Source: Candidatus Krumholzibacteriota bacterium (GTDB lineage Bacteria > Krumholzibacteriota > Krumholzibacteriia > JAJRXK01). From it: DNA of 58,584 nucleotides. The notes under the pieces were generated by a model. The model saw only the letters and a program-made list of their open reading frames with translations. It was not told the origin of the DNA and ran no database searches. The DNA is taken from NCBI GenBank assembly GCA_024276305.1, contig JAJRXK010000034.1, forward strand, positions 1-58,584. The letters are read 5' to 3'. The position numbers and the translations under genes are program-made. This document shows, one piece after another, positions 1 through 52,289 of this stretch (position 1 is its first letter; the number at the start of each line of letters is the position of its first letter).

Positions 1-2456
<2,456 letters not shown>

Positions 2457-2460
<4 letters not shown>

Positions 2461-3929
2461 GCTCCCCTGACCTACGACCTCCCATCGATCCTCTCGACAA
2501 CACTTCGGACGATCCGACCCAACCCACGACCTTGGTTCTCGGAGGCCACGACTTCACCTCGGTCACCGATACCGTGGCCTCGATCGCCGAGAATCCCAAT
2601 CCTCCGCGTGCCTGGTACATCGCCTTTGCGGTGACCGCGTCGATGACGGCCATGCTCTTCGCCATGATCGCCTACCTCATCGTGACCGGAGTCGGGGTCT
2701 GGGGACTGAACAATCCCGTGGGGTGGGGTTGGGCCATCGTCAACTTCGTCTTCTGGGTCGGCATCGGGCACGCCGGAACTCTGATCTCGGCGATTCTCTT
2801 CCTCCTGCGCCAGCGATGGCGCACGAGCATCAATCGCTTCGCCGAGGCAATGACCATCTTCGCCGTGATCTGCGCCGGAATCTTCCCGGCCATCCATGTC
2901 GGACGGATCTGGGTGGTGTGGTGGCTCTTCCCCATCCCCAACTACCAACTCGTCTGGCCCAACTTCCGCAGCCCGCTCCTCTGGGATGTCTTCGCGGTGG
3001 GGACCTACATGACGGTCTCGCTTCTGTTCTGGTACACCGGCATGGTGCCGGATCTGGCAACCCTGCGAGACCGGGCCCAGACCAAGACCCGAGCCATCAT
3101 CTTCGGAATCCTCGCTCTGGGCTGGAGAGGCAGCCACCGGCACTGGCACCGTTACGAAAAGGCCTATCTCATCCTGGCCGGCCTGGCCACTCCCCTCGTG
3201 CTCTCGGTCCACTCCGTGGTGAGCTTCGACTTCGCAGTCGCTCAACTCCCCGGATGGCACACCACGATCTTCCCTCCCTACTTCGTGGCGGGGGCCATTT
3301 TCTCGGGCTTCTCGATGGTGGGAACGCTCCTCGTCCCCGCCCGAAAGTGGTTCGGGTTGAAGGAGTTCATCACCCTCCATCACCTCGAGAACATGAACAA
3401 GATCATCCTGGCCACAGGTTCCATGGTGGGCTTCGCCTACGCCACGGAGTTCTTCATCGCCTGGTACGGAGGCAATCCCGCCGAGTCCTTCGCCTTCGTC
3501 AACCGGGCCTTCGGTCCCTACGCCTGGGCCTACTGGATCATGGTGTCGTGCAACGTGATCGCGCCGCAGTTCTTCTGGTCCAAGCGGGTGCGCACGAACA
3601 CCGTGGCGATGTGGATCCTCTACATTTTCGTGAACATCGGCATGTGGTTCGAACGATTCGTGATCACCGTGACCTCGCTCAGCCGCGATTTCCTTCCGTC
3701 GAGCTGGGGTTACTACTCCCCGACCATCGTGGACATCCTCACCTTCGTCGGCAGCTTCGGCCTCTTCTTCATGCTCGTTCTGCTCTTCATTCGCTTCCTG
3801 CCGATGCTGGCCATGGCCGAAGTCAAGACCGTCATGCCAGTGGCCCATGTGAGCGGGGAGTCCAAACCCATCGGAGACTACCACGGGGACATCCACATCC
3901 TTCCCAAAGCTCCCAAGGAGGCGACCTGA
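2457..3929 (+). CDS. actC: Alternative complex III membrane subunit ActC (NrfD/PsrC-like)
   Basis: A 490-residue polytopic membrane protein of the NrfD/PsrC family with about ten hydrophobic segments and a ~50-residue soluble N-terminus. In alternative complex III this subunit forms a quinol site and faces ActB. The conserved stretches [21 protein letters not shown] and [13 protein letters not shown] are typical of ActC. It starts inside the actB stop (ATGA) and its own stop overlaps the actD start (TGATG), so the three are translationally coupled. A long open frame on the opposite strand is a coding shadow. Confidence 0.94.
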
Positions 3930-4468
3930 TGAGTGAGGGGTCCAAGGTCTACGGCATCCTCCTCGAATTCGAGGACCCTCAGAACCTGGTGGTGGCCTGT
4001 CGCAAGGTGCGCGACGCCGGATACACGCGGTGGGATGCGCACACTCCCTTCCCCATCCACGGCATGGATGCGGCGATGGGAATCCGCGGTACTCGACTCC
4101 CGCTCCTCATTCTCGCGGGCGGCTTGACCGGTCTGGCTCTCGCTCTGCTGATGCAATGGTGGATGAATGCCGTGGACTATCCCTTCTTGATCAGTGGCAA
4201 GCCCCTCTTCGGATTGCCCGCCAACATTCCCGTGACCTTCGAACTCACGGTCCTCTTTGCCGCCTTGACCACCTTCTTCGGAATGTGGGGGCTCAACGGG
4301 ATGCCCCGCCTCTACCATCCCGTCTTCAAGAGCGCCCGTTTCCGGCGCGCGACGGCGGACCGCTTCTTCATCGTCATCGAGAGCGATGACCCCCTCTATC
4401 AGACCGAAGGCACTTCGGATTTCGCCGCTTCTCTCGGCGCGGTCGCGGTCGAGGAGTTGGAGGACTGA
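3929..4468 (+). CDS. actD: Alternative complex III subunit ActD
   Basis: A 179-residue protein with a soluble N-terminal part (KVYGILLEFEDPQNLVVACR), two membrane helices (around residues 57-76 and 98-122) and a soluble C-terminus ending FFIVIESDDPLY. This is the standard ActD layout (quinol:cytochrome c oxidoreductase membrane protein, DUF3341). The start ATG shares one base with the actC stop, and its stop likewise overlaps actE (TGATG). The order B-C-D-E-F matches known act operons. Confidence 0.92.
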   Translation: MSEGSKVYGILLEFEDPQNLVVACRKVRDAGYTRWDAHTPFPIHGMDAAMGIRGTRLPLLILAGGLTGLALALLMQWWMNAVDYPFLISGKPLFGLPANIPVTFELTVLFAALTTFFGMWGLNGMPRLYHPVFKSARFRRATADRFFIVIESDDPLYQTEGTSDFAASLGAVAVEELED

Positions 4469-5109
4469 TGCCCCGCTGGATCATCTTTCTGGGTCTCTTC
4501 CTGACCACCCTGGCCCTGCTCCCCTTGGCCTGGTTGGACCATGCCCGGTCGACGAATCACCGGTCGCGGCGCATCCAGGTGATCTACGACATGGACCAAC
4601 AGCCCTACCACCGGGCCCAAACCCCGGCGGACTTCTTCGCGGACGGTCGCGCGATGCGTCCGCCCGTAGCGGGAACCGTTTCCCGCGAGACCATCCTCGA
4701 TGACCCATCCTTAACCACTGGTCGCAAGGGTGGAGAGTGGGTCCGAGACTTCCCCCACGGGGTCGACTCGGCCATCCTCCGACGTGGTCGAGAGCGCTTC
4801 GACATCTACTGCGGACCCTGCCACGGGGAGAGCGGGCGGGGGGACGGGATGGTTGCCCGGCGGGCCGCATCCCTCGGCGAGGGAACGTGGACCCAACCCA
4901 GTGACCTCACCGCCGAGACCACCGTGGCGCGTCCGGTGGGAGAACTCTTCGACATCATCACCCGCGGAATTCGGAAGATGCCCCCCTACGCGGCCCAGAT
5001 TCCGACCGAGGATCGGTGGGCCATCGTCGCCTATCTCCGAGCTCTGCAGCGGAGTGCCCACGGTTCGCTCCGCGATGTTCCCGAGGACCAGCGCAGCGCG
5101 CTGCGATAG
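4468..5109 (+). CDS. actE: Alternative complex III monohaem cytochrome c subunit ActE
   Basis: A 213-residue cytochrome c with one N-terminal membrane anchor or signal (residues 3-22). A single CGPCH haem site lies at residues 115-119 and a likely methionine ligand sits in RKMPPY near residue 171. The family transfers electrons from the act iron-sulfur/haem chain to the terminal acceptor on the periplasmic side. The sequence before the haem site, with DMDQQPYHRAQ, is characteristic of ActE. It is coupled to actD and followed 8 bases later by actF. Confidence 0.92.
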   Translation: MPRWIIFLGLFLTTLALLPLAWLDHARSTNHRSRRIQVIYDMDQQPYHRAQTPADFFADGRAMRPPVAGTVSRETILDDPSLTTGRKGGEWVRDFPHGVDSAILRRGRERFDIYCGPCHGESGRGDGMVARRAASLGEGTWTQPSDLTAETTVARPVGELFDIITRGIRKMPPYAAQIPTEDRWAIVAYLRALQRSAHGSLRDVPEDQRSALR

Positions 5110-5117
5110 GAGCCAAC

Positions 5118-6335
5118 GTGTCGCAACCTCACGTCATGCCCTCGTTGGAGGGAGAGAAGCTCACTCTGGACGAAGTGGGCCCCCGGATTCTGATCGGTGG
5201 ATCCATCCTGGGCGTTGTCGGTTTCGCCGCCGCGATCGCGATCGGGGTGGGAAGGAATGACCACTTGGCCAGCCTGGGGTGGTCCTACCTCCTCAACTTC
5301 GCCTACTTCCTCAGCCTCTCGCTGGGAGCACTGTTCTTCGTCGCGGTCGGCCATCTCACCCGAGCCACCTGGAATGTGGTCTCGCGCCGGATCGGAGAGG
5401 TCGTCGCGGTGAACCTCGTGCTGATGGCAGTGATGGCCATTCCGCTGATGCTGATGGCCTCACGAGTCTTCCCTTGGGCCTCGGGCCTCACTCACGCTCC
5501 CGAAGAATTGCTCGAGCACAAGCGACCCTTCTTGAATCTCCCTTTCTTCTACCTGCGATGGGTGGTCTACTTCGCGATCTGGGCCGGATATGCCGTGTGG
5601 TTCTGGCGACAGAGCGTCGCGCAGGACCGCAGCGGCGATCCTCGGATCACCATGAGGATGGAAAGCCGCGCCGGCCTGTCTCTTCTACTCTTCGCCCTCT
5701 CCGTCAACTTCGCGTCTTTCGATCTCCTGATGTCCCTGGATCCCACGTGGTTCAGCACGATCTTCGGACCCTACTATTTTGCGGCCGGAGTCGTTGGCTT
5801 CTTCTCCTTGCTCACCCTGCTGACCTTCTTTCTCCAGAGCCAGGGGCGTCTGACCCGGGCCATCCATGTCGAGCACTATCACGACTACGGCAAGCTGATG
5901 TTCGCCTTCGTCTTCTTCTGGGCCTACCTCGCCTTCAGTCAGTACATGCTGATCTGGTACGCGAACATCCCCGAAGAAACCGCATGGCTGCTGCGACGTG
6001 AGGAGAACGGCTGGGGCTGGATCGGGTTGGTCCTGGTCTTCGGCCATTTCCTGGTGCCCTTCGCCGGACTGCTCTCCCGCTTCACCAAGCGTCTGCGAGC
6101 CACTCTCTTCCTCTGGGCCCTGTGGATCCTAGTCATGCACTGGATCGACCTCTACTGGGTCGTGATGCCGGAGATTCGGCCCCTCGATCCCGGACTCGAT
6201 TCCCTCGACCTGCTCTGCTTCCTCGGCTTCGCGGGCTTCTACGCGGCTGCGCTGAGCCGGTGGGCCGGAGCCCATTCCCTCCTTCCCGAGCGCGATCCTC
6301 GTCTGCAGGATGCCTTGGCCTTCGAGAATGCCTAG
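5118..6335 (+). CDS. actF: Alternative complex III membrane subunit ActF
   Basis: A 405-residue polytopic membrane protein, the smaller NrfD-like partner of ActC. I place the start at a GTG with AGGAG five bases upstream (5108-5112). The open frame extends 34 codons further into actE but lacks a ribosome binding site there. Ten hydrophobic segments are visible, with the conserved region SFDLLMSLDPTWFSTIFGPY typical of ActF. The next gene begins 9 bases after the stop. Confidence 0.92.
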   Translation: MSQPHVMPSLEGEKLTLDEVGPRILIGGSILGVVGFAAAIAIGVGRNDHLASLGWSYLLNFAYFLSLSLGALFFVAVGHLTRATWNVVSRRIGEVVAVNLVLMAVMAIPLMLMASRVFPWASGLTHAPEELLEHKRPFLNLPFFYLRWVVYFAIWAGYAVWFWRQSVAQDRSGDPRITMRMESRAGLSLLLFALSVNFASFDLLMSLDPTWFSTIFGPYYFAAGVVGFFSLLTLLTFFLQSQGRLTRAIHVEHYHDYGKLMFAFVFFWAYLAFSQYMLIWYANIPEETAWLLRREENGWGWIGLVLVFGHFLVPFAGLLSRFTKRLRATLFLWALWILVMHWIDLYWVVMPEIRPLDPGLDSLDLLCFLGFAGFYAAALSRWAGAHSLLPERDPRLQDALAFENA

Positions 6336-6344
6336 GAGCCCGTC

Positions 6345-6641
6345 GTGAATCCTTCTCGCAACGATCACCGCTATGGGGTGGCCTCACTGCTCTTCTCGGT
6401 GCTGTCGGTGGCACTCTTCTTGTGGGTCGTGTCCATCCTCCTCGATGGCTGGGCCCTGCGACTGATGGCCCGTGAGACCCATCTCAAACAGGTCGACGTC
6501 ATCGAGACGGAATTGGCCTCCTGCCGCGAGGAGCAGCAAGGTCGCCTGGTCGGATACGAGTGGATCGATCGGGAGCAGGCAAGGATCCGTCTTCCCATCG
6601 AACGAGCCATGGAGCTCGTGGCCGAAGGAGAGTCGCGATGA
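6345..6641 (+). CDS. Small membrane-anchored protein of the ACIII/oxidase junction
   Basis: 98 residues, GTG start behind AGGAG (6334-6338). One membrane helix (residues 12-34) is followed by a soluble tail ending EWIDREQARIRLPIERAMEL. A tail of this form (W-D-x-E-x-x-x-x-R-x-P-I-x-x-A-M-E-L) recurs in small proteins encoded between act genes and oxidase subunit II genes in other bacteria, so a role in supercomplex assembly is plausible. I cannot assign a named family. Its stop overlaps the next start (ATGA). Confidence 0.75.
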   Translation: MNPSRNDHRYGVASLLFSVLSVALFLWVVSILLDGWALRLMARETHLKQVDVIETELASCREEQQGRLVGYEWIDREQARIRLPIERAMELVAEGESR

Positions 6642-7543
6642 GCGCTGACCCTCACTTCTCCTGGCTGCTCGTCGCCACGGTGGCCGCCGCGGTGGGATTC
6701 GTGACCCTCGTGGATGTCCTCTTGGTCCTGAATCTCCGGCGCCATGCCGAGGATCGCGGAGAAGACTTCGAAGTCCCCCGCGGACTCCGCATCATGAGCC
6801 TGCTCCTTCCCCTCGGGGCCGCCGCAGCACTCGTCTTCACCGGGGCCCGCGACCTGGTCCAAGCCACGGTCCCCCCTCTCCACTCCCTCGAGGTCTCGGC
6901 CTCTCGCGGGGAAGAGGGTTGGGACTTTCGCTACTCCCCAGAAGTCGCCGCCGACAGCCTCCACCTTCCGGTGCATCGGCCGGTGCGTCTCACCCTCGAG
7001 TCCCCAGAAGGCCCGCTGACCCTGAAGATCCCCGCGCTGCGTCTGGAACGCACGGCCCGAGCCGGAGCAAAGGTGAGCGCCTGGTTCGAGGCCCAGGTTG
7101 CGGACACCTTTGCTCTGTGGGGCGAAGCCGGCCATCGTGCGCCGGAGGAGGGGCTGAGGAGCGCCATGGTCGTCCACTCCGGACCGAGCTTCGACCGCTG
7201 GTTCGCCTCGAAGTCCGATCTCCTCGAGATGTATCCACCGGTCGAGGCCGGCCGTCATCTGGTCGAACGCCACGGATGTCTCGTCTGCCACAGTCTCGAC
7301 GGCAGCCCCCGAACCGGACCGAGCTTCTGGGGAGTCCTCGGCCGTCACCGAGTCTTCAGCGACGGCACCACCGCGGTGGCTGACTCCAGCTATGTACGTC
7401 ACTCCGTGCTGCAGCCTCAATCCCAGATCGTTCAGGGATTCCCCGGAGTCATGCCCTCCTTCGAGGGGAAGCTTCGAGATGCCGACATCGCAGCGATCAT
7501 CGACTTCTTCGAGACTCTCCGTGAGAACGGCGAGGAGCAATGA
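6638..7543 (+). CDS. CuA-less cytochrome c oxidase subunit II-like protein with C-terminal haem c
   Basis: 301 residues. Two N-terminal membrane helices (about 8-30 and 48-70) are followed by a cupredoxin-like domain (about 80-195) and a cytochrome c domain with CLVCH at residues 214-218 and a candidate methionine ligand at 272 (GVMPSF). The layout is that of caa3-type CoxB. Where CoxB has the CuA motif (C-x-x-x-C-G-x-x-H), this protein reads TFALWGEAGH, so both cysteines are gone. The FDRWF helix that follows the motif is conserved. It overlaps its upstream neighbour by ATGA and is one base from the subunit I homologue. It could pass electrons through haem c only, or be structural. Confidence 0.8.
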   Translation: MSADPHFSWLLVATVAAAVGFVTLVDVLLVLNLRRHAEDRGEDFEVPRGLRIMSLLLPLGAAAALVFTGARDLVQATVPPLHSLEVSASRGEEGWDFRYSPEVAADSLHLPVHRPVRLTLESPEGPLTLKIPALRLERTARAGAKVSAWFEAQVADTFALWGEAGHRAPEEGLRSAMVVHSGPSFDRWFASKSDLLEMYPPVEAGRHLVERHGCLVCHSLDGSPRTGPSFWGVLGRHRVFSDGTTAVADSSYVRHSVLQPQSQIVQGFPGVMPSFEGKLRDADIAAIIDFFETLRENGEEQ

Positions 7544-7544
7544 C

Positions 7545-8999
7545 ATGAACCCTTCATCGGTCCGATCCTCATCGTGGTACTCCACCACCGACTCCGACCG
7601 CCTGGCTCGGATTCAATTGAGCCTGGCCGCGATCGCACTCTCGTTGGGCCTGGCCTATGCCCTCCTTCTTCGGCTGCACCTACTGGCCTCCCTTCACCCC
7701 ATTCTCGCTCCTTCGGTCTTCGGCCAGTCCCTTTCCGCCCACGCCCTCTTCTCGTTCTTCTTCTTCGCGCTGGTGGTCGTCCCCTGTGGGGTGGTCCCGC
7801 CGGTGCTTCCCCACCTCGTCCAACAGCCATCTCTGGCCTTCCCGCGGCTGCAGCAGTGGTCGATGCGCCTGCACTTCTTCGCCTTGGCCTCCATGACCCT
7901 TGCGGTCCTCAGCGGAAGCCTCTCCGCCTCGTGGCCCGAGCTCCTGCCGGAGGCAACGGCCCATCCGTGGACGGTCATCTGGGTCGCCATCGCTCTGCAC
8001 CTGCTGGGACTGTGCCTGGTCTGCACTGCCTTGCAGAGCCTGAGCACCATCTCGACTTCGGGCTTCCCATCTCCCACCGCGGCCGCGGTCTGGGGGATCC
8101 TCTGCGGCGCCGTTGCGCAACTCGTGGTCGGGGTCCTGCTGGCCGCACTGGCGATTCTGATCTTCTTCGAAGCCGCTCCTTCGGCCGCGGTCTTCGATGC
8201 CGCCGGAGCTCTGGTCTATTCTCGCTTCTTCCACTTCCTCGAACGCGCCGCCATCGTGGCCGTGCTTCTGCCTTCGGTGGGAATCGGCATGCAGATCGTG
8301 GCGCATCGCGGAGCCCGACGGGTGGCCGGAGGATGGTCCACTGCCCTGGCCATGGCCTCGATCACCGCACTGGGCTTGAGTGGCGGAGGTCTGGAATTGA
8401 TGAATGCCGGGCAATCGGTGGGATGGAGCGTGGTACAGAGCGCCCTCGGTCTCCTGATTCTCGTACCTGCCACCACTCTGGTGACGAATCTCCTCGCCAC
8501 CTTGCACCGGGGGGCCCTCCGGGTGGACGCGGCGCTGCTCTTTGCCCTGAGCCTGATCACCACCGCAGTAGTCGGAGGGTTGGCCGCGATCTTTCTCACC
8601 GACTTGAGCGTCGCCGGGCCCCTCCTCTCCACCGCATTCCGCAGCGCGGTACTCCATTACCTGCTGGGCGGAGTGTCGCTCTTCGCCGTCCTGGCAGTGG
8701 TGTCGGCCCATGCCGACGATCTCCTCGGTCGACCGCTCGAGGAGGGGCGGGCCCGAGTGGCCGCAGCCCTCTGCTTCGCCGGCCTACACCTCGCCTTCCT
8801 GCCCGGACTGTGGGTCGGAAACCGCGGCCTGTGGTTCGGAGAGGCCGAGCTGGCGCCCTCCACTCTGCGATGGGAGAATCTGGCCTCGGGGGGAGCGGCG
8901 GTTCTCTTGGTGGGGATCGCAGCCTTCGTCTTCCTCTCGCTGCGAGCCCGGTTGGACGCCCTCCGGAGCCCCGAGGGGGGTGACTCGCCCCCGCTGTGA
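7545..8999 (+). CDS. Active-site-less haem-copper oxidase subunit I homologue
   Basis: 484 residues, about twelve membrane helices. Homology to CoxA/CtaD is visible in SAHALFSFFFF (helix II), SLAFPRLQQWSMRL (compare DxAFPRLNxxSxWL), VPATTLVTNLLATL (compare VPTGIKxFxWxATL) and VLHYLLGG (helix X). His66 and His371 match the two low-spin haem ligands. The catalytic residues are missing: the HPEVY segment reads FLERAA (about 231-236), the HH pair of helix VII is absent, and the first His of the HFH motif is Val/Leu. CuB and high-spin haem should therefore not bind. It sits between the CuA-less subunit II and ccoI (the stop overlaps the ccoI start). Confidence 0.8.
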   Translation: MNPSSVRSSSWYSTTDSDRLARIQLSLAAIALSLGLAYALLLRLHLLASLHPILAPSVFGQSLSAHALFSFFFFALVVVPCGVVPPVLPHLVQQPSLAFPRLQQWSMRLHFFALASMTLAVLSGSLSASWPELLPEATAHPWTVIWVAIALHLLGLCLVCTALQSLSTISTSGFPSPTAAAVWGILCGAVAQLVVGVLLAALAILIFFEAAPSAAVFDAAGALVYSRFFHFLERAAIVAVLLPSVGIGMQIVAHRGARRVAGGWSTALAMASITALGLSGGGLELMNAGQSVGWSVVQSALGLLILVPATTLVTNLLATLHRGALRVDAALLFALSLITTAVVGGLAAIFLTDLSVAGPLLSTAFRSAVLHYLLGGVSLFAVLAVVSAHADDLLGRPLEEGRARVAAALCFAGLHLAFLPGLWVGNRGLWFGEAELAPSTLRWENLASGGAAVLLVGIAAFVFLSLRARLDALRSPEGGDSPPL

Positions 9000-11467
9000 A
9001 TCCTCTCGAAGCACTCTCCCCCGTCCTCCCTCCGGACCACGAGTCCCACCCGGACCCCACCGAGCGCTCCTCGAGAGAGCGGCCGGACCGTTGCGCCCAT
9101 TGCGGGCTGCCGCTGGGCCGGAGGTGGCGAGCGGATCTGGGACCATTCTGCTGCGAAGGCTGCCGCAGCGTCTACGCCCTCATCCACTCCGAAGGTCTCG
9201 AGCGCTTCTACGACCTCAAACGTTGCGCCACTGCCCCCCCGGGAGAACGACGGCACGAGAGTTTCGCCTGGCTCGAAGCGCTCCTCGCCGAAACCCCCGC
9301 CTGGCCGAACTCGACCACCAAGACCGTGCGTCTGGACCTGCAGGGCGTGCACTGCACCGCTTGCGTCTGGCTCATCGAACGTCTCTTCGAACGGCACCCC
9401 GCCGGAAGTGCACTGCGGATCAATCCCGCCCTGGGCACCGTGGAATTGCGGTGGGATCCGGAGGTGGGAGAGCTCCAGGACTTCCTGGCCGAGGTTGAAG
9501 ACTTCGGCTATCGCTTCGGCCCTCCCCACAAGAGATCCGCCCACCGTTCACAGAGCCTTCTCATTCGCCTGGGTATCTGCGCCGCGGTGGCGATGAATGT
9601 CATGATCTTCAGCCTGAGCTACTACGCGGGGCTCAATGTTCAGGACGACCCCCTCGTCTTCCGGCTCTTCGGAAGAATCAGTCTCCTTCTGGCCACGCTG
9701 GCCCTCGTCGTCGGGGGTGGGCCCTTCTTCGCTTCCGCATTCCGAGGACTCCGCTCCCGAGTCGCCCATGTGGACCTGCCCATCGCGCTGGGCATGGGGA
9801 TGACCTACGCGGGCTCGGTCTGGGCCTACATCACTCAGGGAGCGGACTCCGCCTACTTCGACACTCTGACCATCTTCATCACCCTGATGCTCCTCGGTCG
9901 GTGGCTGCAGGAGTCCGTGATCGAACGCAACCGCAACTTGCTCCTCTCCTCCGCCGGGATCGCCGACCTCTTCGCACGGCGGTTGACCGGCGGTCGAATC
10001 GAAACCGTCGCCGTCTCGGAGATCCGGGAGGGCGACGAGGTCTGGATCGCGCCCGGGGACTTGATCCCGACCCGAGGCATCCTCCTCCATCGGGGAGGCT
10101 CACTCTCCATGGACTGGATCACCGGCGAAGCCGCTCCAGTGGAGGTCGCCCCCGGAGCGACGGTGGTTGCCGGCGCCTTCAACACCAGCGATCACGGACT
10201 GCGCGTCCACGTCACCGAAGACTTCTCCGCCTCCCATTTGAACGATCTGATCCGAGAGGAGACCCCCTCCACCGAGGAGCTGGGGGAAGCCCGTCACTGG
10301 TGGCACCGAGTGGCCACCATCTACGTCGGGGCCGTGCTCCTGCTCGGCGGTGCGGCCCTCCTTCTATGGGCATCTGCGGGGTGGCATCGGGCCATCGAAG
10401 TCTGCGTCTCGGTCCTGGTGATCTCCTGTCCCTGTGCCATCGGGATCGGCCTGCCTCTGGCGCGGGAAATGGCCCATAGTCGGCTGCGACGCAGGGGAGT
10501 GCTCCTGCGCCGTGACTCCTTCCTCGATCGCGCCCTCCAAATCCGCCACATCGTCTTCGACAAGACGGGAACCCTCACCCGCAGCCAGCTGCGTCTGCGT
10601 GACGATTCTCGTCGCGCACTCCTCGATCTCGACGCCCCGACCCGCAAGATCCTGCTGTCGATGTGCAGCCGGTCCAAGCACCCGGTCTCGAAGTGCATCG
10701 CCGCCGCACTCTCCCTGGAAGTGCATCGTCCGCAGAATGTCGAACAGGACGTCGACGCGGAAGTCGCGGATGCCGTGCGAGAGCACCGGGGCCGGGGCCT
10801 GTCACTGAGCGTCGAAGGTCGAGAGTTCCGCATCGGCCGGCCCACCTGGGTGAGCCCGGCTGCGCCTTCCATCGATGGGGCCACGAGTGCGATCGGGATC
10901 GACGGAGAGCTCCTTCTGGTCGTCCATCTCGAGGAGGAGCTGCGCGGCGATGCGGTCGACGAGGTCCGGGCGCTGCGGGGCATGGGTCTGGGCATCCACC
11001 TCCTGAGCGGGGACCGGACGGACAAGGTGAAGCGCGTGGCCCGACAACTCGGTATCGAGCCCCAACATGCTCACGCCGAGCTCTCCCCCGAAGACAAGGC
11101 GGAGGCCCTGACCGACATCGACCAGGACGACACCTTGATGGTGGGCGACGGGCTCAACGACATCTTGGGATTCGAACACTCCTTTGCTGCGGCCACCCCG
11201 GCCGTCGATCGCACCTTCCTGGCCCAGAAGTCCGACTTCTACTTCCTCGGAGACGGCATTGCCGCGGTGCGACGCGCCCTGCTCATGTCTCACCGGCTCC
11301 GACGGGTACAGACCGAGATCCTGATCTTCGCTGCTCTCTACAACTTGACCGCCATCGCACTCTGTCTCGCGGGTCGAGTCAGCCCCGTGGTGGCAGCGAT
11401 CCTCATGCCGTTGAGCTCGGTGACCATCGTGCTCTGGACTCGACGGCGTCTCTCCGGAGATGGGTGA
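8996..11467 (+). CDS. ccoI: Copper-exporting P1B-type ATPase for cbb3 oxidase assembly
   Basis: 823 residues. An N-terminal zinc-finger-like metal-binding region (CAHCGLP...FCCEGC, about residues 33-54) is followed by an HMA domain with CTAC near 120, eight membrane helices with the CPC ion-translocation motif (SCPCAIGIG, about 477), the phosphorylation site DKTGTLT (about 522) and GDGLND (about 717). This architecture is that of CcoI/FixI, which exports copper needed for CuB of the cbb3 oxidase. The GTG start overlaps the upstream stop (GTGA), and ccoS follows after 2 bases. Confidence 0.93.
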   Translation: MNPLEALSPVLPPDHESHPDPTERSSRERPDRCAHCGLPLGRRWRADLGPFCCEGCRSVYALIHSEGLERFYDLKRCATAPPGERRHESFAWLEALLAETPAWPNSTTKTVRLDLQGVHCTACVWLIERLFERHPAGSALRINPALGTVELRWDPEVGELQDFLAEVEDFGYRFGPPHKRSAHRSQSLLIRLGICAAVAMNVMIFSLSYYAGLNVQDDPLVFRLFGRISLLLATLALVVGGGPFFASAFRGLRSRVAHVDLPIALGMGMTYAGSVWAYITQGADSAYFDTLTIFITLMLLGRWLQESVIERNRNLLLSSAGIADLFARRLTGGRIETVAVSEIREGDEVWIAPGDLIPTRGILLHRGGSLSMDWITGEAAPVEVAPGATVVAGAFNTSDHGLRVHVTEDFSASHLNDLIREETPSTEELGEARHWWHRVATIYVGAVLLLGGAALLLWASAGWHRAIEVCVSVLVISCPCAIGIGLPLAREMAHSRLRRRGVLLRRDSFLDRALQIRHIVFDKTGTLTRSQLRLRDDSRRALLDLDAPTRKILLSMCSRSKHPVSKCIAAALSLEVHRPQNVEQDVDAEVADAVREHRGRGLSLSVEGREFRIGRPTWVSPAAPSIDGATSAIGIDGELLLVVHLEEELRGDAVDEVRALRGMGLGIHLLSGDRTDKVKRVARQLGIEPQHAHAELSPEDKAEALTDIDQDDTLMVGDGLNDILGFEHSFAAATPAVDRTFLAQKSDFYFLGDGIAAVRRALLMSHRLRRVQTEILIFAALYNLTAIALCLAGRVSPVVAAILMPLSSVTIVLWTRRRLSGDG

Positions 11468-11469
11468 AC

Positions 11470-11643
11470 ATGAATGTCCTGATCATCACCGTCTTCGTGA
11501 GTCTGATCCTCGTGGCAGCGGGGCTCATCTTCTTCGTCTCGCGGCTGCGCGGCGGAGACTTCGAACATGGTGATCGCCTCTCCCTCTTACCCCTCGATGA
11601 AGACCATCCTCGAAACCAGCAGTCCCGGCACGAAAGGCTGTAG
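11470..11643 (+). CDS. ccoS: cbb3 oxidase maturation protein CcoS
   Basis: 57 residues with one membrane helix (residues 2-24) followed by RLRGGDFEHGDRLSLLPLDED, which matches the GGQFDDL...LxDD signature of CcoS. CcoS is required for insertion of haem and copper cofactors into CcoN. It lies directly between ccoI and the fused ccoNO (3-base gap), the usual ccoIS order. Confidence 0.88.
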   Translation: MNVLIITVFVSLILVAAGLIFFVSRLRGGDFEHGDRLSLLPLDEDHPRNQQSRHERL

Positions 11644-11646
11644 CTC

Positions 11647-13992
11647 ATGGAATCCGCGAACTCGATGACCCAGCGCGTCGAATACGACGACCATGTCGTC
11701 CGAGCATTCACCCTCGCCACGACCATCTGGGGAGCAGTCGGTCTGCTTCTGGGCGTGATCATCGCGACTCAGTTGTCCTTCTGGCAGGCGAACCTCGACA
11801 CCAGTTGGCTGCAGTTCGGACGCCTGCGTCCGCTGCACACCAATGGCGCGATCTTCGCGTGGGTCGGCAACATGATCTTCGCTGGAGTCTACTACTCCAC
11901 CCAACGCTTGCTGAAAGCGCGGATGGCTTCGGACCTGTTGAGTTGGATCCACTTCTGGGGTTGGCAGCTCATCATCGTGGCCGCTGCGATCACCCTCCCG
12001 ATGGGACTGACCCAAGGCAAGGAATACGCAGAGCTCATCTGGCCCATCGACATCGCGGTGGTCGTCGTGTGGGTGGTCTTCGCGATCAATTTCTTCTGGA
12101 CGCTGGCCAGAAGGAACGAGCGAAACCTCTATGTGGCCCTCTGGTTCTACATTGCCACGATCGTCACCGTGGCCGTGCTCTACATCGTGAACAATCTCCA
12201 ACTGCCCACGAGCTGGACCCATAGTTATTCGATCTTCATGGGGGTCCAAGATGCGCTGGTCCAGTGGTGGTACGGGCACAACGCGGTGGCCTTCTTCCTC
12301 ACCACCCCCGTACTCGGGATCATGTACTACTTCCTACCGAAGGCCGCAGAAAGGCCGGTCTATTCCTACCGTCTCTCCATCGTCCACTTCTGGACCCTCG
12401 TCTTCATCTACATCTGGGCCGGTCCCCATCACCTCCTGAACACCGCGCTCCCCGATTGGGCCCAGACCCTGGGCATGGTCTTCAGCGTGATGCTCTGGGC
12501 GCCCTCCTGGGGAGGAATGCTCAATGGTCTGCTCACTCTCCGCGGAGCATGGGACAAATTGCGCACGGATCCGGTGATCAAGTTCTTCGCGGTTGCCGTC
12601 ACCTTCTACGGAATGGCCACCTTCGAAGGCCCCCTGCTCGCCATCAAGAGCGTCAACGCCCTCGGGCACTACACCGATTGGATCATCGGGCATGTGCACG
12701 CCGGAACACTGGGCTGGAATGGCTTCATGACCGCCGGCCTTCTCTACTGGCTGGTGCCGCGCTTGTGGGGAACCAAGCTCCATTCGAAGCGTCTGGCCGA
12801 CGCTCATTTCTGGATCGGCACCTTCGGAATCCTTCTCTACGTCTCTTCCATGTGGATCAGCGGAGTGAGCCAAGGCCTCTTCTGGCAGGCTCTGGACGCC
12901 GAAGGCTTCCTCAAGTTTCCCGACTTCATCGAAGGTCTCACCGCCTCGCACTTCATGTACCAGATGCGCCTGGTGGGCGGCATCGCCTATCTCTCGGGCT
13001 ACCTGATGCTGATGTTCAACGTCTTCGCCACCATCCGGGCCGGATCTCCTCAGAAGGTCACTATCGAAGTCGCGGCTCTGCCGCCGACCGGGTTGAGCTT
13101 CTGGCGTCTGATCTTCTCGGGTCCGGTTCTGGTTTCGGCCCTGGTGATCGGCGCTCCGATCCTCCTGGGCATCTCCGGCGTGATCACGGGCATCGTGGCC
13201 TTGGTCCTCTTGGAGGTTCTGGTCATCGGACTGGTCCTGCACTACGGATCGCGGCGCGAGGAGCGAAGCTGGCACGACATGATCGAGGCCCATCCTCTGG
13301 CATTCACGGTTCTGGTGCTGGTGGCCATTCTCATTGGCGGAATGGTCGAGATCATCCCCACCGTGGTCGCCACCAAGGATGCTCCCGTCCAGGCCATGGC
13401 CGACACCGGGAACTATGACTTCGTACAGCGACCCTACAGCCCTCTCGAACTCGAGGGCCGGGACATCTACGTCAGCGAGGGTTGTTATGTGTGTCACAGC
13501 CAGATGATCCGCCCCTTCCGGCACGAGACTCTGCGCTACGGCGAATACTCGCGTCTGGCCGAGTTCATCTATGACACACCATTCCAGTGGGGAAGCAAAC
13601 GCACCGGTCCGGATCTGCACCGCGTGGGCGGCAAGTACGCCAATGTGTGGCACTATCTCCATCTCAATGACGCCCGGTCCACATCCCCCGGATCGAATAT
13701 GCCGCGCTACAACCATCTCAGTCGCGAGCATGTGGATTTCTCGCACACGCGAACCAAGATGCAAGCGCTCCGGAAACTCGGAGTTCCCTATACCAACGAC
13801 GATTGCGAAGCCGCCGAAACGACGGCGTTGAGCCAAGCCCAGCTCGTGATCGACGATCTCTCCACTCAGGATGTCGTCCTCGATCCCAATTCCAAGATGA
13901 CTGCCCTCATCGCCTATCTGCAGCGACTCGGTCGTGGTCCCCAACCGATCGCTCCAAGCCTCGAAGAACTCAGCCAAGCGGGAGGTCATTGA
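11647..13992 (+). CDS. ccoNO: cbb3-type cytochrome c oxidase, fused subunits I and II (CcoN-CcoO)
   Basis: 781 residues. Residues 1 to about 475 are the catalytic CcoN subunit with the haem/copper histidines in LRPLHTNGA, WWYGHNAVAF, AGPHHLL and GHVHAGTLGWNGF. A linker with one or two helices leads into a CcoO domain with CYVCHSQMIRP (haem c at Cys613, Cys616, His617) and the NMPRY methionine region. Fused CcoNO is common in Bacteroidetes and other FCB-type bacteria. This is the only subunit I in the window with an intact oxygen-reducing site. ccoQ starts one base after the stop. Confidence 0.95.
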   Translation: MESANSMTQRVEYDDHVVRAFTLATTIWGAVGLLLGVIIATQLSFWQANLDTSWLQFGRLRPLHTNGAIFAWVGNMIFAGVYYSTQRLLKARMASDLLSWIHFWGWQLIIVAAAITLPMGLTQGKEYAELIWPIDIAVVVVWVVFAINFFWTLARRNERNLYVALWFYIATIVTVAVLYIVNNLQLPTSWTHSYSIFMGVQDALVQWWYGHNAVAFFLTTPVLGIMYYFLPKAAERPVYSYRLSIVHFWTLVFIYIWAGPHHLLNTALPDWAQTLGMVFSVMLWAPSWGGMLNGLLTLRGAWDKLRTDPVIKFFAVAVTFYGMATFEGPLLAIKSVNALGHYTDWIIGHVHAGTLGWNGFMTAGLLYWLVPRLWGTKLHSKRLADAHFWIGTFGILLYVSSMWISGVSQGLFWQALDAEGFLKFPDFIEGLTASHFMYQMRLVGGIAYLSGYLMLMFNVFATIRAGSPQKVTIEVAALPPTGLSFWRLIFSGPVLVSALVIGAPILLGISGVITGIVALVLLEVLVIGLVLHYGSRREERSWHDMIEAHPLAFTVLVLVAILIGGMVEIIPTVVATKDAPVQAMADTGNYDFVQRPYSPLELEGRDIYVSEGCYVCHSQMIRPFRHETLRYGEYSRLAEFIYDTPFQWGSKRTGPDLHRVGGKYANVWHYLHLNDARSTSPGSNMPRYNHLSREHVDFSHTRTKMQALRKLGVPYTNDDCEAAETTALSQAQLVIDDLSTQDVVLDPNSKMTALIAYLQRLGRGPQPIAPSLEELSQAGGH

Positions 13993-13993
13993 C

Positions 13994-14194
13994 GTGTACC
14001 AGGAGTTCTACGCAAACCATCACCTGATGATCTATCCCATGATCGGGCTCTGTATTTTCTTCATCTCATTCCTGTTGGTTCTGGCCTGGGTCTTCTTCGG
14101 ACTCCGCGGGAATCCAACCGTCGAAGAAATGGCCGCCCTACTCCTCGTGGACGACTGCGGAACGACCGCCTCAGTGGAGGAGAGTCATGAGTGA
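13994..14194 (+). CDS. ccoQ: CcoQ-like small subunit of cbb3 oxidase
   Basis: 66 residues, GTG start with GGAGG nine bases upstream. There is one membrane helix (about residues 12-37) and a short hydrophilic C-terminus. Position between ccoNO and ccoP and size match CcoQ, a non-catalytic subunit that stabilises CcoP association. The stop overlaps the ccoP start by 8 bases. Confidence 0.78.
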   Translation: MYQEFYANHHLMIYPMIGLCIFFISFLLVLAWVFFGLRGNPTVEEMAALLLVDDCGTTASVEESHE

Positions 14195-14816
14195 GTACAA
14201 GCAGGACCAGGTACGTGAACATTCCTTCGACGGAATCCAGGAATTCGACAACCGCCTGCCGAATTGGTGGCTCTGGATCCTCTACGGTTCCATCGTCTTC
14301 GCCGTCGGCTACTGGGTGGTCTTCGAGACCCTGGGAGCGGTTCCCGGACCGAATGGGCGCTATGCCCTGGAGATGGAGGCGGCAATGGAGGCCCAGCTGG
14401 CCCGGATGGCCGGAGGCGGACCTCGCAACGAGAGCCTGAACCTGATGGCCTCCATGCCCGAAAAGGTGGCCGAGGGACGGGCGCTCTTCGAGACCTATTG
14501 CGTAGTCTGCCATGCGGACCAGGCCCAGGGGAATGTGGGTCCCAATCTCACCGACTCCTACTGGATCCATGGCGGACAACCCATCGAGATCTACCATACT
14601 GTCACCGAAGGCGTCCCCGAGAAGGGAATGGCCGCGTGGGGACGCCAGCTCGGGCCCACCCGGGTGCAGAAGGTCGTGTCCTATGTGATCTCGTTGCGCA
14701 ACACCAATGTGGCGGGCAAGGATCCTCAGGGAGAGCTCTACCAGATGACCGTCGACGAGGAGAATGCCGCTGATGAGCTCAATTCCGAAGACGCAGGCGA
14801 AAGCGCCACGAAGTAG
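14187..14816 (+). CDS. ccoP: Single-haem CcoP subunit of cbb3 oxidase
   Basis: 209 residues. The N-terminal part (HSFDGIQEFDNRLPNWW) is the conserved CcoP entry sequence, followed by a membrane helix (about 27-48) and one cytochrome c domain with CVVCH at residues 105-109. The classical proteobacterial CcoP has two haem c domains, and here the second is absent. The C-terminal tail is acidic. The ccoG start lies inside its 3' end. Confidence 0.92.
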   Translation: MSEYKQDQVREHSFDGIQEFDNRLPNWWLWILYGSIVFAVGYWVVFETLGAVPGPNGRYALEMEAAMEAQLARMAGGGPRNESLNLMASMPEKVAEGRALFETYCVVCHADQAQGNVGPNLTDSYWIHGGQPIEIYHTVTEGVPEKGMAAWGRQLGPTRVQKVVSYVISLRNTNVAGKDPQGELYQMTVDEENAADELNSEDAGESATK

Positions 14817-16188
14817 AAAACGCCGTCCCGACCTGGATTCCGTCTATTCGATCAACGAGGACGGGTCGCGCAACTTCCTCCACCCCGCCGATGTGCGGGG
14901 CCGGTGGCAGAGAAGGGTCCAGGTCTTCTGGACCCTTCTGATCCTGGTCTACGTGGGACTGCCTTGGATCGAAGTCGCCGGACAACCCGCAGTCCGCTTC
15001 GACCTTCCCGGGCGCGCCGCCTATCTATTCGGCCTCAGCTTCACCAACCAAGACTTCTATCTCTCCTTCTTCGCGCTCTCCGGGTTGGGTTTCGCCCTCT
15101 TTGTCCTCACTGCCCTCTACGGAAGAGTCTGGTGCGGCTTTGCCTGCCCCCAAACCGTGTTCATGGAGGGCATCTACCGACGCATCGAGCGATGGATCGA
15201 GGGACCGCGCAACACTCGCATCCGGCGCAACATGGGGCCCAACGACTTCGACAAGGTCTGGCGCAAGATCCTCAAACACACCCTGTTTCTGGGTCTCTCC
15301 TACGGAATCGCTCACGTCTTTCTCTCCTACTTCATTCCCGTACACGAGCTCCTGCAGGTGATCCGCTCGAACCCCGCCGAGCACAAGACGGCCTTCGGCT
15401 GGTCGATGTTCTTCACCGGTCTCATGTACTTCGACTACGCCTGGTTCCGCGAGCAGACCTGCTTGATCATCTGCCCCTACGGACGAATCCAATCCGCTTT
15501 GATCGACCCCGATACGATCATCATCGGCTACGACGAGAAGAGAGGAGAGCCAAGATCCCACGGTGTCGACGAAGGGGGAGACTGTATCGACTGCTACCGC
15601 TGCGTCGAAGTCTGTCCCACCGGGATCGACATCCGCAACGGCCTGCAGATGGAGTGCATCGGATGCACTCGGTGCATCGATGCCTGTGACGACATCATGG
15701 ATCGCATCGCCAAGCCCCGAGGGCTCGTCCGATACGACTCCGAACGTTCCTTCGAGGGAGGGGAGAAACGCTCGATCCTGCGTCCGCGGGTCTTCCTCTA
15801 CCTCTGCCTCGGCCTCATCGGAATAGCGGTGGCGACCCTCTCCGTGCACCAGCGCGAACCCTTCGGGGCCCGCGCCCTCCGCGCCCGAGGAATGCCCTAC
15901 ACACTCGAAGAGCACCGAATCCGCAATCTCGTGAACGTGCACCTGCAGAACAAACGCACCGAGGAGGCGACTCTATTCGTACGTCCGGGGGAATCCCAGG
16001 GGCTACCGATCGAGTATCTCGTTCCCCAACCGAGAGTTCACCTCGCAGCGATGGAGGACCAGCAGGTGCCGGTCTTCGTCTTCGCCGACCGCAAGGCCTT
16101 CGATCAGAACTTCGGGTTCACGCTCCTGATCGAGGACTCCCTCTCTGGCCGGGTGGAGGAACTCCACCTCACCTTCCGAGGTCCCTGA
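14773..16188 (+). CDS. ccoG: CcoG, ferredoxin-like cbb3 oxidase assembly protein
   Basis: 471 residues from the ATG at 14773, which has GAGGAG 10 bases upstream; an ATG three codons earlier is possible. Membrane helices flank WCGFACPQTVFMEGIYRRIE, a hallmark of CcoG/RdxA/FixG. Two [4Fe-4S] motifs follow (CIDCYRCVEVCP and CIGCTRCIDAC). A C-terminal Ig-like domain occupies the last ~120 residues. CcoG is reported to act in Cu(II) reduction during cbb3 biogenesis. It overlaps ccoP by 44 bases. Confidence 0.93.
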   Translation: MSSIPKTQAKAPRSRKRRPDLDSVYSINEDGSRNFLHPADVRGRWQRRVQVFWTLLILVYVGLPWIEVAGQPAVRFDLPGRAAYLFGLSFTNQDFYLSFFALSGLGFALFVLTALYGRVWCGFACPQTVFMEGIYRRIERWIEGPRNTRIRRNMGPNDFDKVWRKILKHTLFLGLSYGIAHVFLSYFIPVHELLQVIRSNPAEHKTAFGWSMFFTGLMYFDYAWFREQTCLIICPYGRIQSALIDPDTIIIGYDEKRGEPRSHGVDEGGDCIDCYRCVEVCPTGIDIRNGLQMECIGCTRCIDACDDIMDRIAKPRGLVRYDSERSFEGGEKRSILRPRVFLYLCLGLIGIAVATLSVHQREPFGARALRARGMPYTLEEHRIRNLVNVHLQNKRTEEATLFVRPGESQGLPIEYLVPQPRVHLAAMEDQQVPVFVFADRKAFDQNFGFTLLIEDSLSGRVEELHLTFRGP

Positions 16189-16190
16189 TC

Positions 16191-16358
16191 GTGCGAAGCT
16201 GGTTTGGAAAACGGCCCTGGATCTGGATCCTGCTCCTCATCGGCTTTCTCTTGTCCCTGAGTGCAGCCTTCGTCTCGATCGCACTCCGGCAGGCACCGAT
16301 CCTGGCGGACGAGCCCCTACCAGAACATCAGCTCGCCGATCCGAAAGTGCCCCACTAG
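16191..16358 (+). CDS. Very short CcoH/FixH-like membrane protein
   Basis: A 55-residue frame starting at GTG two bases after the ccoG stop. Its start RPWIWILLLIGFLLSL and a helix ending near residue 32 resemble the N-terminal anchor of CcoH/FixH, which normally follows CcoG and is about 150 residues long. The periplasmic domain is nearly absent here (ADEPLPEHQLADPKVPH to the stop). Its last 42 bases overlap the 3' end of the convergent SafE-like gene. It could be a minimal CcoH or the remnant of one. Confidence 0.55.
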   Translation: MRSWFGKRPWIWILLLIGFLLSLSAAFVSIALRQAPILADEPLPEHQLADPKVPH

Positions 16359-17063
16359 ACCCAGAACCGCCAGGCCCCGCAGTCCGAGCTGCGCCGCCAC
16401 CAAGAGCAGGATACCGCCCGAAGCCCGCCGCAGGACGAGCCGAAGGTTGGCCCCCCAACGATGCGCGCTCAGACCGAAGATCAGCAGCACCGGCAGGGTC
16501 CCCACGCCGAAGAGCGCCATGGCCACCGCACCCTTCACCACACTGGCCGTCGCCGCCGCCGCAACCGCGGCTGCATAGACCGGTCCACAGGGAAGGCATC
16601 CATTGGCCATGCCCAACCCCGCACAGCGGCGCAACCCGCGAACTTCGAAGAGCCGTTGCATGGTGCGACTCACCTGCTGCCCCCAGGCTCGGGTCCAGGC
16701 ATGGGTCGACCACGGCAGCAGACCCCACTGGGCCGCGGCCAAGGCGACGAGGCTCGCAGACACCGCCAGGGCGAAGATCCCCTGAATGCGAGTTCCCCCC
16801 GCCATCACTTCCACCGTCGATCCCAGGAAACCGACTACCGCTCCCAGGATCGAATAGCTGCCGATTCGTCCGAAGTGATAGACCAACGAAGGTACCAGAA
16901 TCGAGGACCGTCCCCGACCGGAGTCCTGTCGCAAGGAGAAGGCAGTGACGAGTGGACCACACATTCCCAGACAGTGGCCCAGACTCATGGTCAGACCCAG
17001 CAGGAGCATGGCTCCCAAGTCCACCGCATGGGCGGTGGGATCGAGGGGAAGGCAGCAATTCAT
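16317..17063 (-). CDS. SafE/TauE-like (DsbD_2) membrane protein, probable cbb3/copper assembly factor
   Basis: 248 residues with six or seven helices. GHCLGMCGPLV near the N-terminus and GMANGCLPCGPVY in the middle are the paired cysteine motifs of the CcoH2/UreH/DsbD_2 family commonly annotated as sulfite exporter TauE/SafE. Members next to cco genes are implicated in copper supply for cbb3 oxidase. It is transcribed towards the cco operon and overlaps the ccoH-like frame by 42 bases. A TAGACT hexamer lies close to the ATG. Confidence 0.85.
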   Translation of the reverse strand: MNCCLPLDPTAHAVDLGAMLLLGLTMSLGHCLGMCGPLVTAFSLRQDSGRGRSSILVPSLVYHFGRIGSYSILGAVVGFLGSTVEVMAGGTRIQGIFALAVSASLVALAAAQWGLLPWSTHAWTRAWGQQVSRTMQRLFEVRGLRRCAGLGMANGCLPCGPVYAAAVAAAATASVVKGAVAMALFGVGTLPVLLIFGLSAHRWGANLRLVLRRASGGILLLVAAQLGLRGLAVLGLVGHFRIGELMFW

Positions 17064-50027: not shown

Positions 50028-51007
50028 GGATGGCGCCTTTCTTCCGCAAGCTGAGAGGACTCGCCGCCGGAGGCTCCTTCCACCCGCAGAAGCTTTTCGA
50101 CTGCCGCAGGCCGATCGGTCCAATGAACCTTCCAACGCCGATGCCATCGCAGCGAGAGTCCCGACAGAACCCTACCGGGCCCAACCTCCGCCAACACCCC
50201 GCAACCACGTCGATCCAGCTCCTTCAGAACCAGATCCCAGCGAACGGGATGAAGGATCTGATCCTTCATCCTTCGATGGATTCGCGAGGGTTCGGACATC
50301 AGTTCACCGGTCATGGACGACACCCAGGGAATTCGGGGGATCCGGAATTCGATGCCCGCCAGGCGCGCGGTGAACTTCTCCGCAGCGACTCTCATCAACG
50401 GGGAATGAAATGCGCCGTGAACGTCGAGGGGTCGAAACGCTGCGCCACTTCCCTTGAGCTTCTGACGAAGAGTGGCAAGTTCCGAGATTCCCCCGGACAA
50501 GACCACCGAACAACGGCCATTGACATTCGCCACCAGACTCGAGGACCCGCTCTCGTGAAGGCCAGTCTCTTGCAACTCGTCCAGGGAGAGCCCACTCACC
50601 GCCACCATTCCTCCCGCTTCGCGTTCGCAGTCCTCGCGCAACCAACGACCGCGATCCCGCACCAACGTCAGACCCTCAGCAAACCCCAGAGATCCCGACA
50701 CGACTGCCGCCGTCCACTCTCCTAGGCTGTGTCCGCTCACCACCGAAGGGACCATGCCGTGTTCCTCCAGGACCTTCGCGGTCGCGATGCTCTGAGTGAA
50801 GATCACCAAGTGAGCGACGTCGGTCTGGACCAGTCGATCGAGAGTTCCGGATCCGACGAGATCGATGAGATCCACTCCGGCCAGATCACTGGCCTCTTGG
50901 TAGACCTGCTTCACGCTGGGCCAACGCTTCAGCAATGCGGTCCCCATTCCTACTTCGATCGATCCCTGGCCGGGGAAGCAGAATGCGATTCCCATGGGAG
51001 CCCTCAC
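50024..51007 (-). CDS. Malonyl-CoA:ACP transacylase-like protein
   Basis: 327 residues from a GTG overlapping the upstream stop (GTGA); an ATG at 50995 (MGIAFCFPGQGS) is also plausible. Acyltransferase fold with FCFPGQGS, catalytic Ser94 in SGHSLGEW, the substrate Arg in VRDRGRW and His201 in GAFHSPLM. It loads an extender (malonyl) on the carrier domain. Coupling on both sides and the absence of a separate fabD/acpP set indicate a dedicated, cluster-specific enzyme. Confidence 0.9.
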   Translation of the reverse strand: MRAPMGIAFCFPGQGSIEVGMGTALLKRWPSVKQVYQEASDLAGVDLIDLVGSGTLDRLVQTDVAHLVIFTQSIATAKVLEEHGMVPSVVSGHSLGEWTAAVVSGSLGFAEGLTLVRDRGRWLREDCEREAGGMVAVSGLSLDELQETGLHESGSSSLVANVNGRCSVVLSGGISELATLRQKLKGSGAAFRPLDVHGAFHSPLMRVAAEKFTARLAGIEFRIPRIPWVSSMTGELMSEPSRIHRRMKDQILHPVRWDLVLKELDRRGCGVLAEVGPGRVLSGLSLRWHRRWKVHWTDRPAAVEKLLRVEGASGGESSQLAEERRHP

Positions 51008-52266: not shown

Positions 52267-52289
52267 CGATCTCCTATCGGAATCCCGGA

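Follow-up and report, generated by a model that had tools for sequence, protein, structure and literature searches.

What does a respiratory operon do with an oxidase that has lost its catalytic metal sites? The question is raised by the stretch of DNA analysed here (the window), a contig of 58,584 nucleotides (JAJRXK010000034.1, contig C17) from a Candidatus Krumholzibacteriota bacterium. Between its genes for alternative complex III (ACIII; act genes) and those for a cbb3 oxidase (cco genes) lie two adjoining frames, pseudo-coxB and pseudo-coxA, which resemble subunits II and I of a caa3 oxygen reductase. We propose, with a probability of about 0.6, that the pair is a caa3 oxygen reductase without catalytic metal sites, kept as a non-catalytic electron outlet of ACIII, since the oxidase chemistry appears to have been removed but the haem c and a CoxA-fold anchor retained. 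Related bacteria carry the same kind of pair beside other respiratory enzymes, which suggests that the disabled pair has been reused rather than left to decay.

Metal and haem sites of the window pair

Subunit I matches Pfam COX1 at 5e-39 and the CtaD/CoxA model at 2.6e-47, the latter with 161.6 bits, far under the cut-off of 670.75 bits; the models that the protein matches are of the CoxA type, ccoN not being among them. The structure model, with a predicted local distance difference test score (pLDDT) of 83.2 and a predicted template-modelling score (pTM) of 0.85, has a CoxA fold, and its best Foldseek matches were COX1 chains (TM ~0.87). In the alignment with catalytic act-linked relatives, the histidine of the CuB motif YSHPxVY is replaced by arginine and the HH pair by LE. 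The high-spin haem histidine of AHFHY is valine in the same alignment, and the arginines of MPRR are FG. The two low-spin haem ligands correspond to His66 and His371, in agreement with a phmmer alignment to human COX1. Had two of the six ligand histidines survived at random, they would have been exactly the low-spin pair with a chance of 1/15, so the retained pair is a weak signal in one protein alone; the same combination, low-spin pair kept and high-spin histidine lost, recurs in 4 of 27 relatives.

In subunit II, a weak CoxB match (8.6e-07) covers the first half and a cytochrome c domain the last 95 residues (PF00034, over the cut-off). All six CuA ligand columns that were checked are changed, both cysteines included, the residues being G, A, H, E, L and L. 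The C-terminal haem c site is present (CLVCH and the Met of GVMPSF), and 93 residues of the cytochrome c domain align with 1w2l at 6.1e-26. We take 1w2l to be the cytochrome c domain of the Rhodothermus marinus caa3 oxidase. Reference 28 of PMC8552683 fits this attribution, as far as the accessible part of that paper goes. These ligand columns bear out the initial annotation of the locus, which had described a subunit II lacking both CuA cysteines yet carrying a haem c, and a subunit I lacking CuB and high-spin ligands in which His66 and His371 occupy the low-spin positions.

The predicted CoxA fold leaves room for an active oxygen or nitric oxide reductase with relocated ligands, and His230, the sole histidine near the first CuB position, lies about one helical turn from it. 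We consider such an enzyme extremely improbable. Shifted CuB or high-spin ligands, a possibility raised in the initial annotation, were sought, and neither HH nor HPxVY is present elsewhere in subunit I; there is no high-spin axial histidine and no second candidate ligand set, and six relatives lack all six checked histidines.

Related pairs, their upkeep and their origin

A search with the subunit I protein returned only distant relatives in its own phylum, the best at 29% identity and several without the HH motif. Once 14 duplicate loci had been removed, the set held 28 distinct pseudo-CoxA proteins, that of the window and those of 27 further Krumholzibacteriota-type loci. CuB ligand 1 and the first histidine of HH are kept in none of the 28 and the high-spin histidine in 11; both low-spin histidines are kept in 15, with the second lost in 12 and the first not covered in 1. 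No protein that lost the second low-spin histidine (0/12) has the high-spin one. This pattern reads as an order of loss in which CuB would have gone before the high-spin haem, and the high-spin haem before the low-spin one. Among the pseudo-CoxB proteins, a CuA cysteine is kept in 0 of 27, CxxCH in all 25 covered and the axial Met in all 24 covered (L100 ends before it). There are 12 catalytic act-linked caa3 loci, including L062 on contig C1 of the same genome (all ligands intact); every checked ligand is kept in the 10 fully readable CoxA and the 12 CoxB. The window pair has lost CuA and CuB, has kept haem c and adjoins the act genes with no SCO gene in between, the traits that define the family. 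That pairs of this kind appear from their sequences to form a family is what is new here. The initial annotation knew of no description of such a pair, and in the open-licence literature searched we found neither an act operon whose CoxA/CoxB pair is catalytically dead nor anything on Krumholzibacteriota together with ACIII.

The haem counts bear on a role for subunit I in electron transfer. The initial annotation had taken retention of the low-spin haem to be the point of the pair, the subunit I haem being the working part that passes electrons from complex III to cbb3. Both ligands are indeed present in the window and in 14 of the 27 relatives; they were lost together in nine cases, the second alone in two and the first alone in none. 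As they are kept or lost largely as a pair, many members probably bind a low-spin haem. However, in the 12 of 28 without the second ligand the pair, its haem c and purifying selection persist, which weakens a haem conduit as the common function, while the idea of a scaffold survives. We also know of no route in A-type oxidases by which, without CuA, electrons would pass from haem c to the subunit I low-spin haem or from that haem to a partner. It is the haem c of subunit II that is kept in every fully covered case. We give the conduit little credence; if subunit I of this species binds a low-spin haem in the first place, that haem would be structural or vestigial.

Dead pairs mostly end act operons, and their surroundings differ from those of catalytic pairs. 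A SCO gene (identified as SCO1/SenC by Pfam at L091), coding for a CuA chaperone, lies between actF and coxB in 12 of 12 catalytic act loci vs 0 of 24 dead ones. CoxC and CoxD (subunits III and IV) are encoded downstream at 9 of the 12 catalytic loci, the other three being cut or gapped, and at no dead locus; positions 1-17000 of the window hold no match to either. Downstream of the 28 dead pairs we found nosZ in 10 cases (at L123 only a 201-base piece at the contig end), a seven-haem NapC/NrfH-like cytochrome in 9, cbb3 genes in the window alone and nothing recognised in 8. Neither nosZ nor the seven-haem cytochrome occurs at any of the 12 catalytic loci, and across the 28 pairs no clean link between haem class and downstream neighbour was seen. 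The NosZ of L069 is of the Sec-dependent type (854.7 bits, over the cut-off of 625), known in the literature as clade II; NosD and two cytochrome c domain proteins are encoded after it. Thus the tie to ACIII and a plausible link to another terminal enzyme, both suggested by the initial annotation, stand, but the cbb3 neighbour proved particular to the window, relatives having nosZ or the seven-haem cytochrome instead. An electron sink does exist, since, of the 19 genomes in the fetched act set that encode a dead CoxA, 18 have ccoN over its cut-off and the remaining one has two pieces under it.

Proximity to copper enzymes could also point to a factor for the assembly or sensing of cbb3 or other copper enzymes instead of an electron carrier: the pair overlaps ccoI and precedes the cco genes, and nosZ with the NosD maturation gene follows in some relatives. 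Yet most relatives follow act genes whatever lies downstream, and haem c is kept throughout; such a factor seems to us rather improbable.

Could the pair be in simple decay, given that the genome also encodes a catalytic caa3 (contig C1) and cbb3 and could dispense with this copy? L062, a separate act locus of the same genome in which no ligand is lost, would permit this, and the branches of the window proteins are long, 4.79-6.56 for subunit I and 3 for subunit II vs 0.49-0.61 for ActCDEF. Against decay, both frames are full length (301 and 484 amino acids) and coupled, as the initial annotation had it: the start of subunit II overlaps the stop of the preceding small open reading frame (ORF), one base separates II from I, and the GTG of ccoI shares bases with the subunit I stop. 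The GC content at third codon positions is 0.77 and 0.80, like that of the flanking genes (0.74-0.85). The haem c site is intact and its domain is far better conserved than the remainder: mean identity of the window subunit II to seven catalytic act-linked CoxB is 46% in the cytochrome c domain, 27% in the cupredoxin domain and 18% in the membrane part, whereas the seven among themselves have 58%, 68% and 56%. Fisher values calculated alongside these identities take no account of common ancestry. Equivalents in relatives, moreover, are under purifying selection. We regard simple decay as unlikely.

That selection was estimated as the ratio of nonsynonymous to synonymous substitution rates (dN/dS) in pseudo-CoxA only, because with stop-to-stop frames spurious leader sequence enters the values for CoxB and ActF in some pairs, most of all in L084/L090. 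Nine pairs of relatives gave 0.07-0.32, with dS above 1 for L069/L089 and L068/L104; two pairs without low-spin ligands gave 0.21 and 0.27, and the catalytic pair L084/L090 (0.243) is not among the nine. Purifying selection thus acts in the family of dead pairs, and the act operons of related genomes do not carry them only as decaying remnants, in line with the earlier view of a pair that is dead yet apparently maintained. For the window pair itself the argument for maintenance is indirect and runs through its better-kept cytochrome c domain.

The origin of the window pair is read differently by the two sets of trees. In the CoxA tree (computed without L085 and L093, which have an N run or are truncated), the dead relatives form one clade of 26 rows at 100/98.7, and the window stands next to it at only 86/87 on a branch of 4.79. 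In the ActCDEF tree the window falls outside a group (99/98) of the catalytic loci L091-L093 and all dead rows, and a single clade of window and dead rows is rejected (approximately unbiased test, p-AU 0.006); a second Act tree was computed without L063, L077, L085, L096, L099 and L101. ActCDEF thus argue for an independent origin, whereas in CoxA the dead clade is the window's neighbour; the pairs may go back to two losses, or to a single loss followed by recovery of the oxidase. In the latter case genus g36 may have regained a catalytic caa3: both a catalytic act locus (L093) and a dead pair (L118) seem to occur in genome G061, a metagenome-assembled genome of ~950 contigs with 5% contamination. 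At L093, ~6 kb separate the SCO gene at 8626 from coxB at 14929 (G061:C813). The window ActCDEF fall among family f5 and not with the genome's other copy, and the block of act genes, pair and cco genes may be an old transfer. Assignment of the contig to a wrong genome bin was considered: a pyridoxal phosphate enzyme on it is 76% identical to one in a same-genus genome, 72% to a same-family one and ≤53% elsewhere, so the contig belongs to the genome.

As to wider spread, a first contig scan with the subunit I protein gave no confirmed loci. Scanning with one peptide pattern gave 23, of which 15 were treated as copies of known loci or the missing half of one (L117). Only L107 is named outside Krumholzibacteriota, on a contig labelled Verrucomicrobia. 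As the window protein itself would escape this pattern, it does not follow that such pairs are absent beyond these loci. The L107 pseudo-CoxA is 96% identical to that of L106, a Krumholzibacteriia one, and in 57 genomes searched around it the best other match, L140, is a catalytic caa3 (ligands read in L140 alone; 38 other genomes had matches); bin contamination or recent transfer is therefore the likely explanation of L107.

A possible electron outlet for alternative complex III

If the pair serves as an electron outlet, subunit I would occupy the membrane position that it has next to ActC/ActA in the ACIII-caa3 supercomplex of R. marinus, so that the haem c of subunit II would come to lie beside ActE. 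Electrons from ACIII would reach this haem c and go on to a further redox enzyme, in the window the cbb3 oxidase whose genes follow immediately and in relatives probably nitrous oxide (N2O) reductase or the seven-haem cytochrome, the neighbouring reductase genes suggesting the destination. In R. marinus, according to the available portion of PMC5928083, subunit I/III lies beside ActC and below ActA, the cytochrome c of subunit IIc lies beside ActE, and ActE is a direct donor, its electrons passing to that cytochrome c domain.

Several observations weigh against an electron outlet. The very long subunit I branch is what relaxed constraint would also give, and the window pair has no close relative, so that the dN/dS evidence comes from relatives only. 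Eight of the 28 pairs have no recognised redox neighbour, several contigs are cut short, and the pairs at L118, L123 and L124 are not beside act genes (the L124 genome encodes ActC elsewhere). In the Flavobacterium johnsoniae supercomplex the contact is carried by subunit III, as far as the accessible text of PMC8361435 describes it; docking may differ here because subunit III is absent beside the pair. ActE of F. johnsoniae is moreover dispensable for electrons to aa3 in the part of PMC8552683 available.

Among known systems, R. marinus ACIII-caa3 resembles the window in that oxygen reductase genes come after the act operon (PMC5928083, in part) and in the matching cytochrome c domain of subunit II. 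The window pair differs in lacking CuA, CuB, the high-spin haem site and genes for SCO and subunits III and IV. The catalytic caa3 at Krumholzibacteriota act loci shares the protein families and the order actF, small ORF, coxB, coxA, but keeps its ligands and, in 12/12, SCO. Cytochrome cy is a membrane-tethered haem c between a quinol-oxidising complex and cbb3. It belongs to the Rhodobacter capsulatus bc1-cbb3 supercomplex listed in the available part of PMC8361435, and the likeness is of proposed working principle only, a tethered haem c feeding cbb3. The anchor in the window would be a whole pseudo-oxidase and the first complex ACIII, not bc1. The cc(o/b)o3 oxidases of Desulfovibrio and Melioribacter have lost CuA in subunit II. 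They too are A-type oxidases, and that of Melioribacter is encoded with ACIII, but the accessible part of PMC5492636 describes them as oxygen-reducing enzymes.

Tentatively, and with the odds somewhat against so broad a claim, the family may make ACIII a plug-in quinol:cytochrome c hub, in which N2O reductase, a seven-haem cytochrome or cbb3 is coupled to a common scaffold, a dead caa3 whose haem c is live. The dead state would have arisen at least twice, in the window lineage and in a large Krumholzibacteriota clade, and the subunit I haems would have been lost progressively as the scaffold role took over. Were the electron-outlet reading correct, a terminal oxidase could persist after the loss of its activity as a component for docking and wiring, and the ACIII-oxidase supercomplex would be modular enough for redirection to other acceptors, N2O included. 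A coxA/coxB annotation in uncultured bacteria would then not necessarily mean oxygen reduction, since such genes do match the oxidase families and the ligands alone reveal the difference. Such pairs would also allow one to test directly whether a partner in a supercomplex can have a purely structural role.

Layout of the window and minor observations

The genome is 3.55 Mb, 97.87% complete and 0.35% contaminated. The order of genes is actB-C-D-E-F, small ORF, subunit II, subunit I, ccoI, ccoNO fusion, ccoP and ccoG (Table 1). The contig begins within actB at base 1 (positions 1-22), and ActA and the actB start are not on it owing to the contig end.

Table 1. Features of the act, pseudo-oxidase and cco region (positions in the window)
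Feature	Position	Strand	Evidence or remark
ActB, 5' part cut by contig end	22..2460	+	Fer4 and molybdopterin domains (Pfam); homologues ~1000 aa
ActC, NrfD-like membrane subunit	2457..3929	+	PF03916 5.7e-24
ActD	3932..4468	+	PF11821 1.1e-65
ActE, cytochrome c subunit	4468..5109	+	PF13442 1.5e-13
ActF, start approximate (longest frame 5016-6335)	5112..6335	+	No Pfam match; resembles ActC and the ActF position of other act loci
Small ORF following actF; position and a single apparent membrane helix resemble ActG	6345..6641	+	Most act loci have a homologue at this place; likeness to ActG by position, not by comparison with R. marinus ActG
Pseudo-CoxB (P0001), 301 aa: N-terminal membrane part, copper-less cupredoxin domain, C-terminal cytochrome c	6638..7543	+	Pfam/NCBIfam matches, ligand alignment
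TFALWGEAGH, lost CuA loop	7106..7135	+	Ligand columns of alignment
CLVCH haem c attachment site (residue 214)	7277..7291	+	Axial Met in GVMPSF from 7445
Pseudo-CoxA (P0002), 484 aa, CoxA fold without CuB or high-spin haem ligands; ATG 7545, stop 8999	7545..8999	+	Profiles, ligand alignment, structure model
His66 codon, low-spin haem ligand position 1	7740..7742	+	Ligand alignment
LERAAI where YSHPxV is expected; CuB ligand 1 position is Arg	8238..8255	+	Ligand alignment
GLELM where GHHM is expected (CuB ligands 2 and 3)	8388..8402	+	Ligand alignment
His371 codon, low-spin haem ligand position 2; high-spin His two residues earlier is Val	8655..8657	+	Ligand alignment
CcoI-like copper P-type ATPase	8996..11467	+	PF00122, PF00702, PF12156
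CcoN-CcoO fusion, cbb3 core	11647..13992	+	NF011053 1168.7 bits, ccoN 664.9 bits, both over cut-off
CcoP-like cytochrome c	14187..14816	+	TIGR00782 4.5e-33, below cut-off
CcoG	14764..16188	+	TIGR02745 411.8 bits, over cut-off

The same genome has a third act cluster (L063, G000:C116:7735-14394), which is very divergent on the ActCDEF tree and has no coxA/coxB match in the 20 kb fetched. The seven-haem cytochromes downstream of the dead pairs at L066, L067, L072 and L075 have ~510-530 aa with six CxxCH and one CxxxCH; for three of them (L067, L072 and L075), all NCBIfam matches fall short of the cut-offs. On the L124 contig (91-9750), which carries no act genes, complex I antiporter genes, a sulfatase and a tetratricopeptide repeat-thioredoxin protein are encoded upstream of the dead pair, and nosZ lies downstream of it. 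At L137 (G083:C9), in a genome labelled Verrucomicrobia, an act operon is followed by a CcoN-like frame (3e-32). Elsewhere in the window, a protein with a phosphopantetheine carrier domain and a GcvT-like folate domain is encoded beside a ketoacyl synthase (52290-53672 and 51004-52401), and the best matches to this region in 58 related genomes have ≤28% identity.

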